Below are positions 9,976 to 12,209 of a stretch of 64,000 nucleotides of DNA, piece after piece (positions within the stretch are counted from its first letter, which is position 1; each line of letters opens with the position of its first letter). The DNA lies in assembly GCA_002162685.1 (NCBI GenBank), contig MAAQ01000018.1, positions 1 through 64,000 of the forward strand. Reading direction: 5' to 3'. The position numbers and the translations under genes are program-made. Below the pieces are notes generated by a model, which worked only from the letters and a program-made list of their open reading frames with translations, was not told where the DNA came from and did no database searches. This DNA is from Flavobacteriales bacterium 33_180_T64 (lineage in GTDB: Bacteria; Bacteroidota; Bacteroidia; Flavobacteriales; Flavobacteriaceae).

Positions 9976-10836
9976 TTAATGATTTAAAGTTCCTGTATTT
10001 AAAACTGGAGAAGCATCTTTGTCTCCACATAATATCACCATTAAATTGCTTACCATTGCAGCTTTGCGATCTTCGTCTAAATCCACAATTTGTTTTTTGT
10101 TAAGCTCTTCTAAAGCCATTTCGACCATGCTTACAGCACCTTCTACAATTTTATGTCTAGCAGCTACTATTGCAGTTGCTTGTTGACGTTTTAGCATAGC
10201 ATTAGCAATTTCTTGTGCATAAGCTAGGTAACCAATTCGTGCTTCAAGCACTTCTATTCCTGCAATAGATAAACGTTCATCTATTTCTTTTTCTAAGGCA
10301 TTACTTACTTCATTTACACTAGAGCGCAATGTAATATCCTCATCATGACCTTCATCTGCAAAATTGTCATAAGGGTACATACTTGCTAATTTACGAACAG
10401 CAGCATCAGTTTGTACACGTACAAAGTTCTCATAGATATCAACATCAAAAGCAGCTTTGTAAGTGTCTTTAACTCGCCAAACTAAAATAGTGCTAATCAT
10501 AATTGGATTTCCAAGTTTATCATTCACTTTTAAACGTTCGCTATCAAAGTTTCTAGCTCTTAATGATATTTTCTTTTTTGAATAAAATGGGTTAACCCAG
10601 TAAAATCCATTCTTTTTTACAGTACCAATGTATTTCCCAAATAGCAATAATACGCGAGACGCATTAGGTTGTACCATAATAAACCCTGGCACAATAAAAA
10701 TGGTAGGTAATAGTATTAGTAAGAATCCAGGATTATTAGTTCCTATTGCACTAGTAATAGTTCCAAAGAAAAGTATAAGGAATACAAATAGCATTAGATA
10801 ACCGTTTGCTGGGACTACTATTTTTTCTTCTTTCAT
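9976..10836 (-). CDS. SPFH/Band 7 domain membrane protein
   Basis: 286 residues. Two adjacent hydrophobic stretches lie at about 12-50 (LMLFVFLILFFGTI; FLLILLPTIFIVPGFIMV), followed by the SPFH domain from ~60 (SRVLLLFGKYIGTVKKNGFYWVNPFYSKKKISLRARNF) and a helical region (KEIDERLSIAGIEVLEARIGYLAYAQEIANAMLKRQQATAIVAARHKI, described by position ~185-240). Slipin/flotillin-like proteins form membrane scaffolds or cages and often modulate proteases. First gene of the SPFH-DUF4177-ribbon-helix-helix operon. Confidence 0.88.
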   Translation of the reverse strand: MKEEKIVVPANGYLMLFVFLILFFGTITSAIGTNNPGFLLILLPTIFIVPGFIMVQPNASRVLLLFGKYIGTVKKNGFYWVNPFYSKKKISLRARNFDSERLKVNDKLGNPIMISTILVWRVKDTYKAAFDVDIYENFVRVQTDAAVRKLASMYPYDNFADEGHDEDITLRSSVNEVSNALEKEIDERLSIAGIEVLEARIGYLAYAQEIANAMLKRQQATAIVAARHKIVEGAVSMVEMALEELNKKQIVDLDEDRKAAMVSNLMVILCGDKDASPVLNTGTLNH

Positions 10837-10923
10837 TTAATTAAGTTTTAAATTAAATAATTCAATATGATATTATTTTGATATCAAATTTACATCAAAT
10901 ATTTTTAACCTGCAAATTGAGTT

Positions 10924-10939
10924 TGGCACGCGATTTGCT
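10924..10939 (+). promoter_or_regulatory. Sigma-54 (RpoN) promoter, full consensus
   Basis: TGGCACG (10924-10930), CGAT, TTGCT (10935-10939) matches the -24/-12 consensus TGGCACG-N4-TTGCW at every fixed base, with GG and GC exactly ten bases apart. It points rightwards, opposite to both flanking genes, towards a terminator at 11033-11064 and no ORF. Confidence 0.75.
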
Positions 10940-10949
10940 TTACATATAT

Positions 10950-11064
10950 TGTAAATGCTTATGATGATGTTAGTAGAGGAGTGATTACCTCGCATAACGG
11001 AGTAACATTTAACATTTGGTTGGTTAGTTAGTAAAAACGCATCTCAGACTTGAGATGCGTTTTT
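10950..11064 (+). ncRNA. Candidate small RNA under sigma-54 control
   Basis: Start is inferred at about 12 bases after the GC of the sigma-54 box; the end is the terminator stem AAAAACGCATCTCA / TGAGATGCGTTTTT. The ~115-nt interval holds only a nine-codon ORF (ATG at 10955) without a clear ribosome site. Inside are a possible small hairpin (TTAcCTC / GAGTAA around 10984-11004) and an unpaired T/G-rich stretch TTTGGTTGGTTAGTTAG that could act as a seed. The function and target are unknown. Confidence 0.5.
11033..11064. terminator. Strong terminator hairpin, usable in both directions
   Basis: 14-bp stem AAAAACGCATCTCA / TGAGATGCGTTTTT with loop GACT. On the minus strand it lies 25 bases after the alpha/beta hydrolase stop; on the plus strand it would end the candidate small RNA. 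Confidence 0.88.
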
Positions 11065-11088
11065 AATTTATGTATCTGTAAGAAATTA

Positions 11089-12015
11089 CTATTTTAGGAT
11101 AAAGTGAGATACCTTAGAGATTAGATCTTCTGAAATTTCTCTAAAGGATTCATTATAAGATTTTGAGTTTTCTAACTGTCCACCTTCAATAATAAATAAA
11201 ACGTGATTCATCTGATCTATGATTTCTAGCTCAGCTTTTTCTGAAGCATCTTTTAGAAGTTTAGCTTCGTCAACACTAACCTGTAAATCTTTGGTTCCAT
11301 TGACTATAAGTATAGGTATATCTAATGATTTAAGTATGTCTTGCGGATTATATTGCATCCAGTTCATAATGAAAGGTTGAACATCAGCTCTAAAAATTGA
11401 ACCTAAAGCTTGAGGGTAATCATTGGTTAGCTTTCCTTTTTTAAGACTTTCAAAAGCTTTTTTTGTTCCTTCTATAAGAGTAGGATCCATGGCGGCAATT
11501 TGTTGTGTAATAACCTCGTCTATAGATTGACCAGCTCCAGCCAATGACACAAATCCATCTACACGGTCTTTTGATGCTAACAAACCAACCAAGCTTCCTT
11601 GGCTGTGTCCAATAATATAAATGCCAGAATACGATTTTTTTTCTTTAAAATAATCAATAACAGAAATAGCATCAATAACAAAGTCATCAAACGTCATATT
11701 TGGATCGACTTTGTTTTTAAGTATTTGCTTTACAATTCGTTTGTCATATCTAAAGGTTGCAATACCTCTATTAGTTAACGATTCGGCTAATTTTTTTAAC
11801 GAATTACTTTTTAAAAAATTTTGATTCCCATTTCTGTCTGTAGGTCCAGAACCAGCTATAATAATAGCTAATTTAGGACTGTCTCTGTTTTTTGGAGATA
11901 ATAATGTACCATCAATTAGTTTATTTATTGCAATATCTTGTGTTGTATAATTAGGATTTTGACTCGATACATTTATAAAAAAGCAAAAGAGTAGAATGTT
12001 AAAACAATATTTCAT
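11089..12015 (-). CDS. Exported alpha/beta hydrolase
   Basis: 308 residues from ATG at 12015, chosen because a signal peptide (MKYCFNILLFCFFINVSSQ) begins there; a longer form from 12054 would bury it. Serine-hydrolase features: oxyanion segment IIAGSGPTDRNGN, nucleophile elbow GHSQGS, acid region PILIVNGTKDLQV, and His in IDQMNHVLF. It resembles secreted dienelactone-hydrolase or acylaminopeptidase-like esterases of Bacteroidota. Substrate unknown; periplasmic location inferred. Confidence 0.87.
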   Translation of the reverse strand: MKYCFNILLFCFFINVSSQNPNYTTQDIAINKLIDGTLLSPKNRDSPKLAIIIAGSGPTDRNGNQNFLKSNSLKKLAESLTNRGIATFRYDKRIVKQILKNKVDPNMTFDDFVIDAISVIDYFKEKKSYSGIYIIGHSQGSLVGLLASKDRVDGFVSLAGAGQSIDEVITQQIAAMDPTLIEGTKKAFESLKKGKLTNDYPQALGSIFRADVQPFIMNWMQYNPQDILKSLDIPILIVNGTKDLQVSVDEAKLLKDASEKAELEIIDQMNHVLFIIEGGQLENSKSYNESFREISEDLISKVSHFILK

Positions 12016-12209
12016 AGTTATAATTTTAATTGTGCTTTGCAATTGATATACCAAAGTTAACTAAAAATTAAATGAAAAATTGCCTGGTTTTGATACTTTA
12101 GGTTAACGATGTTTAATTTTATAGCACTGCGTTTCATCGATGAAATGGAATATTTCATCTGTAAATGTTAAAATTAAGTGTATTTCATCGATTAATTATG
12201 TATTTTGAC

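Follow-up and report, generated by a model that had tools for sequence, protein, structure and literature searches.

The question raised by this locus is what a sigma-54-type promoter box could serve when it lies on the plus strand while both of its neighbours, a gene for an SPFH protein and a gene for an alpha/beta hydrolase, run the other way; this orientation had been pointed out in the first-pass annotation of the window (the whole stretch of 64,000 nucleotides that was analysed), and both genes do lie on the minus strand. The box itself is confirmed, and the small-RNA interpretation given in that annotation, now in the form of a conserved sRNA family with a sigma-54 promoter, is supported by the sequence comparisons described below. 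We consider it probable that a sigma-54-dependent sRNA of about 115 nt is encoded here by a free-standing gene, and that the seed of this sRNA is common to the 3′ UTRs of part of the regulon. The features of the locus are the following.

9976–10836, minus strand: gene for a Band_7/SPFH membrane protein (Pfam PF01145, E 3.3e-23).
10923–10938, plus strand: sigma-54 −24/−12 promoter box TTGGCACGCGATTTGC (genome pattern search, genus alignment).
10939–10949, plus strand: variable spacer between the −12 element and the predicted start (mean identity 0.65, 22 rows).
10950–11066, plus strand: predicted small RNA of about 115 nt (conservation limits, fold z −4.04).
10950–10962, plus strand: 5′ strand of the closing helix P1 (fold, covariation).
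10976–10991, plus strand: internal hairpin GAGG-AGTGATTA-CCTC (fold; well kept in the genus alignment).
11002–11014, plus strand: 3′ strand of the closing helix P1 (fold, covariation).
11016–11032, plus strand: single-stranded core TTGGTTGGTTAGTTAGT, the proposed pairing region (identity 0.94, unpaired in models).
11032–11065, plus strand: intrinsic terminator (15 pairs, 4-base loop, T run).
11089–12015, minus strand: gene for an alpha/beta hydrolase, convergent with the RNA (Pfam PF12146, E 2.2e-10).

Read directly from the window, TGGCACG-CGAT-TTGCT is present at 10924–10939 on the plus strand, with the GG at 10925–10926 and the GC at 10937–10938, 10 bases apart. A gap of ten bases from GG to GC is the canonical −24/−12 spacing rule of sigma-54 promoters, and thus the match to the RpoN consensus with the right spacing, as originally claimed, is borne out. 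Moreover, its exact form is unique, since the pattern TGGCACGNNNNTTGCT occurs a single time in the 3,752,198-base genome (reversed control, 0), and the strict form TTGGCAYNNNNNTTG has 23 matches in the genome, compared with 10 for the reversed pattern. Loose matches with up to three mismatches are found 21 times in the window against 29 expected by chance, so that only a full match to the box is informative; the box scores given hereafter come from a simple in-house count with no trained model behind it. All 23 genus rows retain TGGCAY-N5-TTG, so the box is conserved in close relatives, and the mean identity of the box region (10922–10938) to the window is 0.90 in 22 genus rows. The RNA is predicted to start at 10950, a position placed 12 nt past the C of the −12 element, and the canonical box stands at the right distance from this inferred start, as in a sigma-54-dependent sRNA gene.

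Upstream of the box, a block at 10870–10893 shows an identity of 0.95 and holds TAAATTTG on the minus strand, conserved around TGATATTATTTTGATATCAAAT. Since TAAATTTG fits TAnnTTTG, the flavobacterial −7 motif according to the available text of PMC9723704, the block is read as the probable promoter of the SPFH gene, or else as an operator. Among the k-mers preceding the box in 59 unlike loci, the main one is TGATATCA (17 of 59, against 0.1 expected); this sequence adjoins the start of the SPFH gene, and no activator site is claimed. On the other side of the locus, a sigma-54-like sequence TTGGTATATCAATTGC lies at about 12039–12054 on the minus strand, 39 nt upstream of the hydrolase ATG, with a score of 9.5. 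The promoter scan also reads TTGGCA-16-TATATT at the box as sigma-70-like (10/12), an overlap from which one could suppose that transcription depends on sigma-A, the housekeeping factor, and that the sigma-54 match arose by chance. However, the would-be −10 of this promoter lies in the spacer at 10939–10949, which is poorly conserved in the genus (0.65) whereas the −24/−12 elements are kept (0.90), TAnnTTTG as given in that text (PMC9723704) is by eye not kept there, the exact box is unique in the genome, and a sigma-54 box accompanies 43 of the 78 places of the core that are considered below. A sigma-A origin is hence highly improbable, and we return to the sigma-54-dependent sRNA.

With respect to the machinery that such a promoter needs, the genome encodes one sigma-54 DNA-binding domain (179 bits) and two strong sigma-54 activator domains (241 and 229 bits), that is, RpoN and at least one enhancer-binding activator. 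The two activator genes lie at C6:84184 and C9:32199. In addition, there are six further activator-domain matches above the Pfam cut-off at 20–38 bits, one of them inside clpB, and the activator-domain family also matches in all 14 control genomes. RNA polymerase with RpoN would start at about 10950 only when the enhancer-binding ATPase is active, and the activator at G000:C9:32199 is a candidate for this role in the case of the sRNA. A groES-like gene (C9:35587) is situated roughly 3 kb away from this activator domain, and the groES of the source genome, named by eye, has a sigma-54 box. A similar distance of about 3.3 kb, measured between start positions, separates a sigma-54 regulator from groES in Flavobacterium psychrophilum, where the sigma-54 motif SM4 precedes groESL, lon, dnaK, grpE-dnaJ, htpG, skp and clpB as well as gliding genes, envelope or exported-protein genes and the putative regulatory RNA Rfp36, sigma-54 serving the stress, envelope and motility response there (PMC9723704, in its available text). 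This regulon content suggests that a sigma-54 sRNA of the family is plausibly a stress or envelope regulator.

For the analysis of conservation, the genus was taken as Psychroserpens. The element is found at the same locus in 22 of 22 other genus genomes (blastn, 97 genomes, E 8e-65 to 5e-15), and the conservation figures refer to 22 rows, from which L030 (other genus) and L031 (row cut by the contig end) were left out. Conservation begins at the predicted start 10950 and collapses beyond the terminator: mean identity to the window is 0.92 for the first 13 nt of the RNA, 0.88 for the 5′ domain, 0.94 for the core, the best conserved stretch within the RNA, and 0.90 for the terminator, and it then falls from 0.90 to 0.43 over the next 26 nt. 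The joint conservation of promoter, hairpin and terminator, proposed at the outset as a check of the small RNA, is thus found in the relatives, both in the position of the element and in its box.

The RNA at 10950–11066 has a folding energy of −34.4 kcal/mol (z = −4.04), and none of 200 shuffled sequences is as stable. In the fold predicted for the RNA of the window, P1 encloses a domain that contains two inner helices and is followed by the unpaired core and then by the terminator; the internal hairpin reads AAGG/CCTT in L017 and is altered in L031. In all, 133 distinct sRNAs with box and core were collected, of which 77 less than 90% alike were used for modelling. After four of the 77 with a short 5′ domain had been dropped (n = 73), the 5′ and 3′ strands of P1 pair with their own partners at −8.98 kcal/mol compared with −4.93 kcal/mol for swapped ones, and in the 16 sequences less than 75% alike the values are −8.16 and −4.28 kcal/mol, with 0 of 10,000 permutations as good in either case. 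Since own partners of P1 pair better than foreign ones, the 5′ domain varies in sequence and mostly keeps its helix, while the core barely varies; between genera the 5′ domains are unalike and the core is retained.

These data bear on the possibility that the element encodes a short peptide, for instance one of 17 codons from a GTG at about 10981, for which a frame GTG ATT ACC TCG CAT AAC GGA ... TAG can be seen by eye in the window. Five genus rows (L019, L020, L021, L023 and L024) are 1–2 nt shorter directly before the core, inside this frame, so that a reading frame is broken there, and the compensating changes in P1 together with a core that outlasts the sequence of the 5′ domain also speak against it; we therefore regard a coding function as having next to no likelihood. 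The 3′ half of the RNA keeps no reading frame in the aligned sequences, and the absence of an encoded protein together with a conserved RNA structure again agrees with a sigma-54-dependent sRNA.

The terminator expected after the box is indeed present at 11032–11065, but it has 15 pairs and not the 14 bp first assigned to it. It is symmetrical and, by eye, has the form of a terminator on either strand, so that it can also end the convergent hydrolase gene. A hairpin of this symmetry directly after the hydrolase stop is what would be seen if it were merely the terminator of that gene and the plus strand were silent. However, 41 of 143 oriented loci hold box and core with neither an SPFH nor a hydrolase neighbour, at least 800 nt of both flanks being visible (the 143 loci may count some species twice), from which it follows that the element is independent of its neighbour genes, and the conservation of core and 5′ domain extends beyond the hairpin alone. 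A terminator without an RNA of its own is thus scarcely credible. The short-peptide, sigma-A and terminator-only readings were rejected on account of the length changes, the unconserved −10 and the loci without these neighbours, respectively.

Across the Flavobacteriaceae, the 17-mer TTGGTTGGTTAGTTAGT occurs in 75 of 299 genomes (78 places) and its reversed pattern in none. A sigma-54 box with a score of at least 9 begins 51–108 nt upstream at the 43 places mentioned above, whereas the opposite strand of these stretches has such a box at 0 of 78 and the downstream sequence at 2 of 77. Among 295 genomes drawn from the whole class, including nine Flavobacteriaceae, the 17-mer was found only in the genome of the window itself. 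Named genomes contain at least 118 stretches with TGGCA and the core, and 103 of the 118 among the matches listed have the full TGGCAY-N5-TTG, the core and the T run. The 15 failures among these matches include records of Pedobacter, Chryseobacterium and Flavobacterium, four other Bacteroidota (L164, L210, L217, L256) and all the other-phylum records listed (Thermogemmatispora, Woeseiaceae, Syntrophomonadaceae, Sphingomicrobium, Deltaproteobacteria, Granulosicoccaceae, Chlorobiota and Verrucomicrobia), and the 103 passing stretches are Bacteroidota save L243, a MAG named ‘Algicola’ which corresponds to genome G017 of the window's genus. The genera with the element among the matches listed include Winogradskyella, Algibacter, Gelidibacter, Formosa, Kordia, Mangrovimonas, Lacinutrix and Tamlana. 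In Kordia algicida (L189) the sRNA occurs as three adjacent copies, all of them equipped with a sigma-54 box, a core and a terminator of their own.

It was also considered whether the element is an already listed sRNA. With Rfam release 15 no family scores above its gathering threshold, the best being Atu_C9 with 25 bits against 40 and BTnc201 with 20.5 against 105, and the Rfam search of 11 loci gave 0 matches. Rfp36 of F. psychrophilum, given in the available text of PMC9723704 as a putative regulatory RNA under a sigma-54 (SM4) promoter, would fit the element by description. The genome G187 shares a similar stretch with a named Flavobacterium record, and its genus is probably Flavobacterium, since L207 resembles L441, L443, L445 and L455. 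In 121 genomes of this genus, however, the 14-base pattern of the core shows no enrichment, matching 16 times where its reversed control matches 35 times, and 0 of the 16 matches have TGGCAY-N5-TTG within 150 nt upstream. By eye, three of the 16 (L447, L451, L452) resemble 3′ UTR copies before a terminator and most of the remaining ones lie within coding sequence. Identity with Rfp36 is considered quite unlikely. The first-pass remark that sigma-54-controlled small RNAs are little described in Bacteroidota is a fair one within open-licence papers: the one relevant paper found has, in the selection listed, one sigma-54-driven putative RNA, namely Rfp36 (PMC9723704, as far as its available text goes), and no description of the present RNA or of the shared 3′ module described below was found in open-licence papers.

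The part of the RNA that differs least in the genus is the core. The T/G-rich single-stranded stretch noticed at 11016–11032 in the first pass turns out to be nearly invariant and mostly unpaired in models: GGTTGGTTAGTTAG is exact in all genus rows except L010, L027, L031 and L032, and the median unpaired probability over 77 sequences, some of which ended early, inside the terminator, is 0.70 for the core compared with 0.40 for the 5′ domain. The exposure is uneven, ranging from 0.20 to 0.96 unpaired across the rows shown, so an exposed conserved seed like that of a trans-acting base-pairing sRNA is present although single models vary. The RNA would accordingly fold into a closed 5′ domain, made of P1 and the inner hairpins, an exposed near-invariant strand UUGGUUGGUUAGUUAGU and the terminator, and the exposed strand may act as a seed that pairs with mRNAs. 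The source genome has one free-standing exact copy of the core.

The core is, moreover, shared with the 3′ ends of mRNAs. There is no box at 35 of the 78 core places (including L096, counted as boxless for a one-base departure in its box, TTCGCAC), and in 25 of these a complete gene, at least 100 codons long, ends no more than 200 nt upstream. By eye, the core lies between the stop codon and the terminator in 24 of the 25 complete hosts, at 4–116 nt from the stop, which is the arrangement of a 3′ UTR-derived sRNA; L099 is the exception, as a terminator separates its stop from the core. Eight of the 25 host genes have a sigma-54 box of their own (score at least 9, within 250 nt of the start codon), compared with 32 of 1397 ordinary genes of the source genome at this score and 4 of 1397 at a score of at least 10, the 1397 genes being those found by a simple gene caller in about 1.65 Mb of the genome. 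These eight hosts represent by eye about three gene families, and the counts in the source genome are small. Five belong to a lipoprotein-like family (L051, L070, L098, L106, L108) and two to a secreted family (L078, L085), as grouped by eye, and L092 encodes Hsp20 (Pfam E 3e-25); three tested members of the lipoprotein-like and secreted families gave no Pfam match. Two of the four genes scoring at least 10 are the local members of the lipoprotein-like and secreted families, and both end in the core (TTTTGGTTGGTTATTTAG and TTTTTGGTTGGTTAGTAG), while another of these four genes resembles groES by eye. The lipoprotein gene of the source genome lies at C23:205838-206788, and a second gene considered with it for the 3′ module at C10:261482-262675. 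In the source genome, six of the 1397 genes have the core with up to 3 of 16 mismatches within 100 nt past the stop, against one for the reversed motif, although two of the six (C16:48039 and C9:114480) seem to hold it inside the next gene. Two of these six are among the 15 genes with a box of at least 9.5 (Fisher p 0.0016; when 2 or 4 mismatches are allowed, p is 0.021 or 0.010, respectively). The core carried by clpB has three mismatches in the source genome, where the box of the gene itself scores only 8; it is exact in L107 (clpB by Pfam) and has one mismatch in L281 (clpB by likeness).

The other 17 of the 25 complete hosts have no sigma-54 box; they comprise a DUF350 protein (8 loci), LuxE-like (3) and anti-sigma-like (2) proteins, with Pfam run on one of each, and further LTXXQ-like, ankyrin and two other hosts. 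The core is thus not confined to the sigma-54 regulon, and to judge from these loci the 3′ module is common to, yet not limited to, sigma-54 transcripts. By eye there is no clear host with the core directly in its 3′ UTR at L054, L073, L086, L093, L100, L101, L110 and L113, and some of the 35 boxless places are due to chance or unexplained. In L048, L055, L065, L071, L072, L074, L075 and L091, the DUF350 gene (assigned by Pfam on L055) is followed by a hairpin, TTCATAATTGGTTGGTTAGTTAG or a near variant, and a terminator, without a box; this element is possibly a 3′ UTR-derived relative. Furthermore, L262–L265 and L267 contain an RNA-like element with a TAAGGGGTGGTTCCCTTA hairpin (a variant in L267), AGTTTGGTTGGTTATTTAGG and a terminator, which lies behind a TAAATTTG (sigma-A-type) box and so has a similar 3′ half and another promoter. 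Because the same seed and terminator end some sigma-54 mRNAs, transcript 3′ ends in part of the regulon could themselves serve as further copies of the regulator or be processed into them, and the shared 3′ module suggests a common regulatory tag. Whether in marine Flavobacteriaceae the sigma-54 stress transcripts, that is, the sRNA together with the lipoprotein, Hsp20 and ClpB mRNAs, carry a regulon-wide 3′ tag which represses shared targets is a more speculative matter, and we put it forward tentatively as a possibility somewhat short of an even chance.

Targets of such a seed were sought by computing duplex energies between the core and the start regions of the 1397 genes; 31 shuffled seeds, the seed in reverse and windows placed in mid-gene served as controls. 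No seed-specific excess was found at the 1397 start codons, where 26 sites reach −16 kcal/mol or lower compared with a mean of 21.8 for shuffled seeds; seven of the 31 shuffled seeds give as many sites or more, and the mid-gene controls give 24. The top candidate is an intercistronic hairpin with the loop ACTAACCAACC between a PspC-like gene (Pfam PF22744, PF22571) and a DUF4440 gene, located in the source genome at G000:C1:33391-33407 on the minus strand (L393; relatives L394–L411). Of the 23 genus genomes, 16 have the candidate stretch, and in 14 of these the loop contains CTAACCAACC unchanged. Thirty PspC loci were examined from 256 genomes with a match; the site is found in the three Psychroserpens loci and a core-complementary site in 0 of the 27 loci outside this genus, 11 of which are in genomes with the exact core. 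The hairpin is often present at PspC loci of other genera too, while the complementary loop is found only in Psychroserpens; in L414, L415 and L420, whose genomes lack the exact core, other parts of the same 270 nt form duplexes of −15 to −18 kcal/mol. The PspC-DUF4440 site, picked as the best of 1397, is thus a weak candidate target at the level of the genus.

The main rival to a pairing function is that the core serves as the site of an RNA-binding protein (for example of the RRM type as in Bacteroides) or as a module for 3′-end stability or termination, carried by the sRNA and the mRNAs alike. Its position directly before the terminator in most places, after genes with or without sigma-54 boxes, and the lack of target enrichment at start regions are in keeping with this, and the RbpB protein of B. 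thetaiotaomicron binds the single-stranded regions of an sRNA family in a sequence-dependent manner, according to the available text of PMC11697453. However, such a role leaves unexplained why a free-standing structured sigma-54 RNA with the core is retained in multiple genera. We therefore judge it unlikely, though far from negligible; the two roles of the core are not exclusive and can coexist. The sRNA gene with a pairing seed is accordingly kept as the preferred reading in the comparison with known systems.

Sigma-54-dependent sRNAs such as GlmY, Qrr and CrcZ are known in Proteobacteria, and they are RpoN-driven non-coding RNAs as is proposed here, but from another phylum. CpxQ and its kin are envelope-stress sRNAs from the 3′ UTRs of stress genes; the likeness lies in the 3′ end of a stress gene as an sRNA, one host here being LTXXQ/Spy-like (Pfam matches below the cut-off), whereas in the present case one core is common to a free-standing sRNA gene and several unrelated mRNAs, and processing at the 3′ end would be hypothetical. 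The nearest known system in concept is FopS, which with GibS belongs to a one-seed sRNA family of Bacteroides, with one member from a 3′ UTR and with induction by bile salts (PMC11697453). According to the available text of that paper, FopS has a housekeeping promoter, its seed in the 5′ part and a family of 14 members in one genome, while the element described here has a sigma-54 promoter, the seed beside the terminator and one free-standing exact copy. Among flavobacterial RNAs, Rfp36 is likened to the element by description only, as a putative regulatory RNA with a sigma-54-type promoter (PMC9723704, available text); the core is not enriched in that probable Flavobacterium genus. Rfp18 of F. 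psychrophilum, also compared by description, is a conserved structured sRNA like the element, but its predicted pairing region is the third stem-loop, its targets are metalloprotease mRNAs, and the available text states no sigma-54 link for it (PMC9723704).

Post-transcriptional control in the Flavobacteriaceae is little explored, to judge from the small number of papers found. A conserved sRNA with a ready seed in many culturable marine genera would give the sigma-54 response a testable RNA arm, and the common 3′ module would be an unusual build in which one seed is spread across the ends of several transcripts of one regulon. If the regulon-wide 3′ tag were true, activation of sigma-54 would flood the cell with RNAs sharing one antisense sequence, and the tag would parallel, by convergence, the sRNA arm of sigma-E in E. 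coli.
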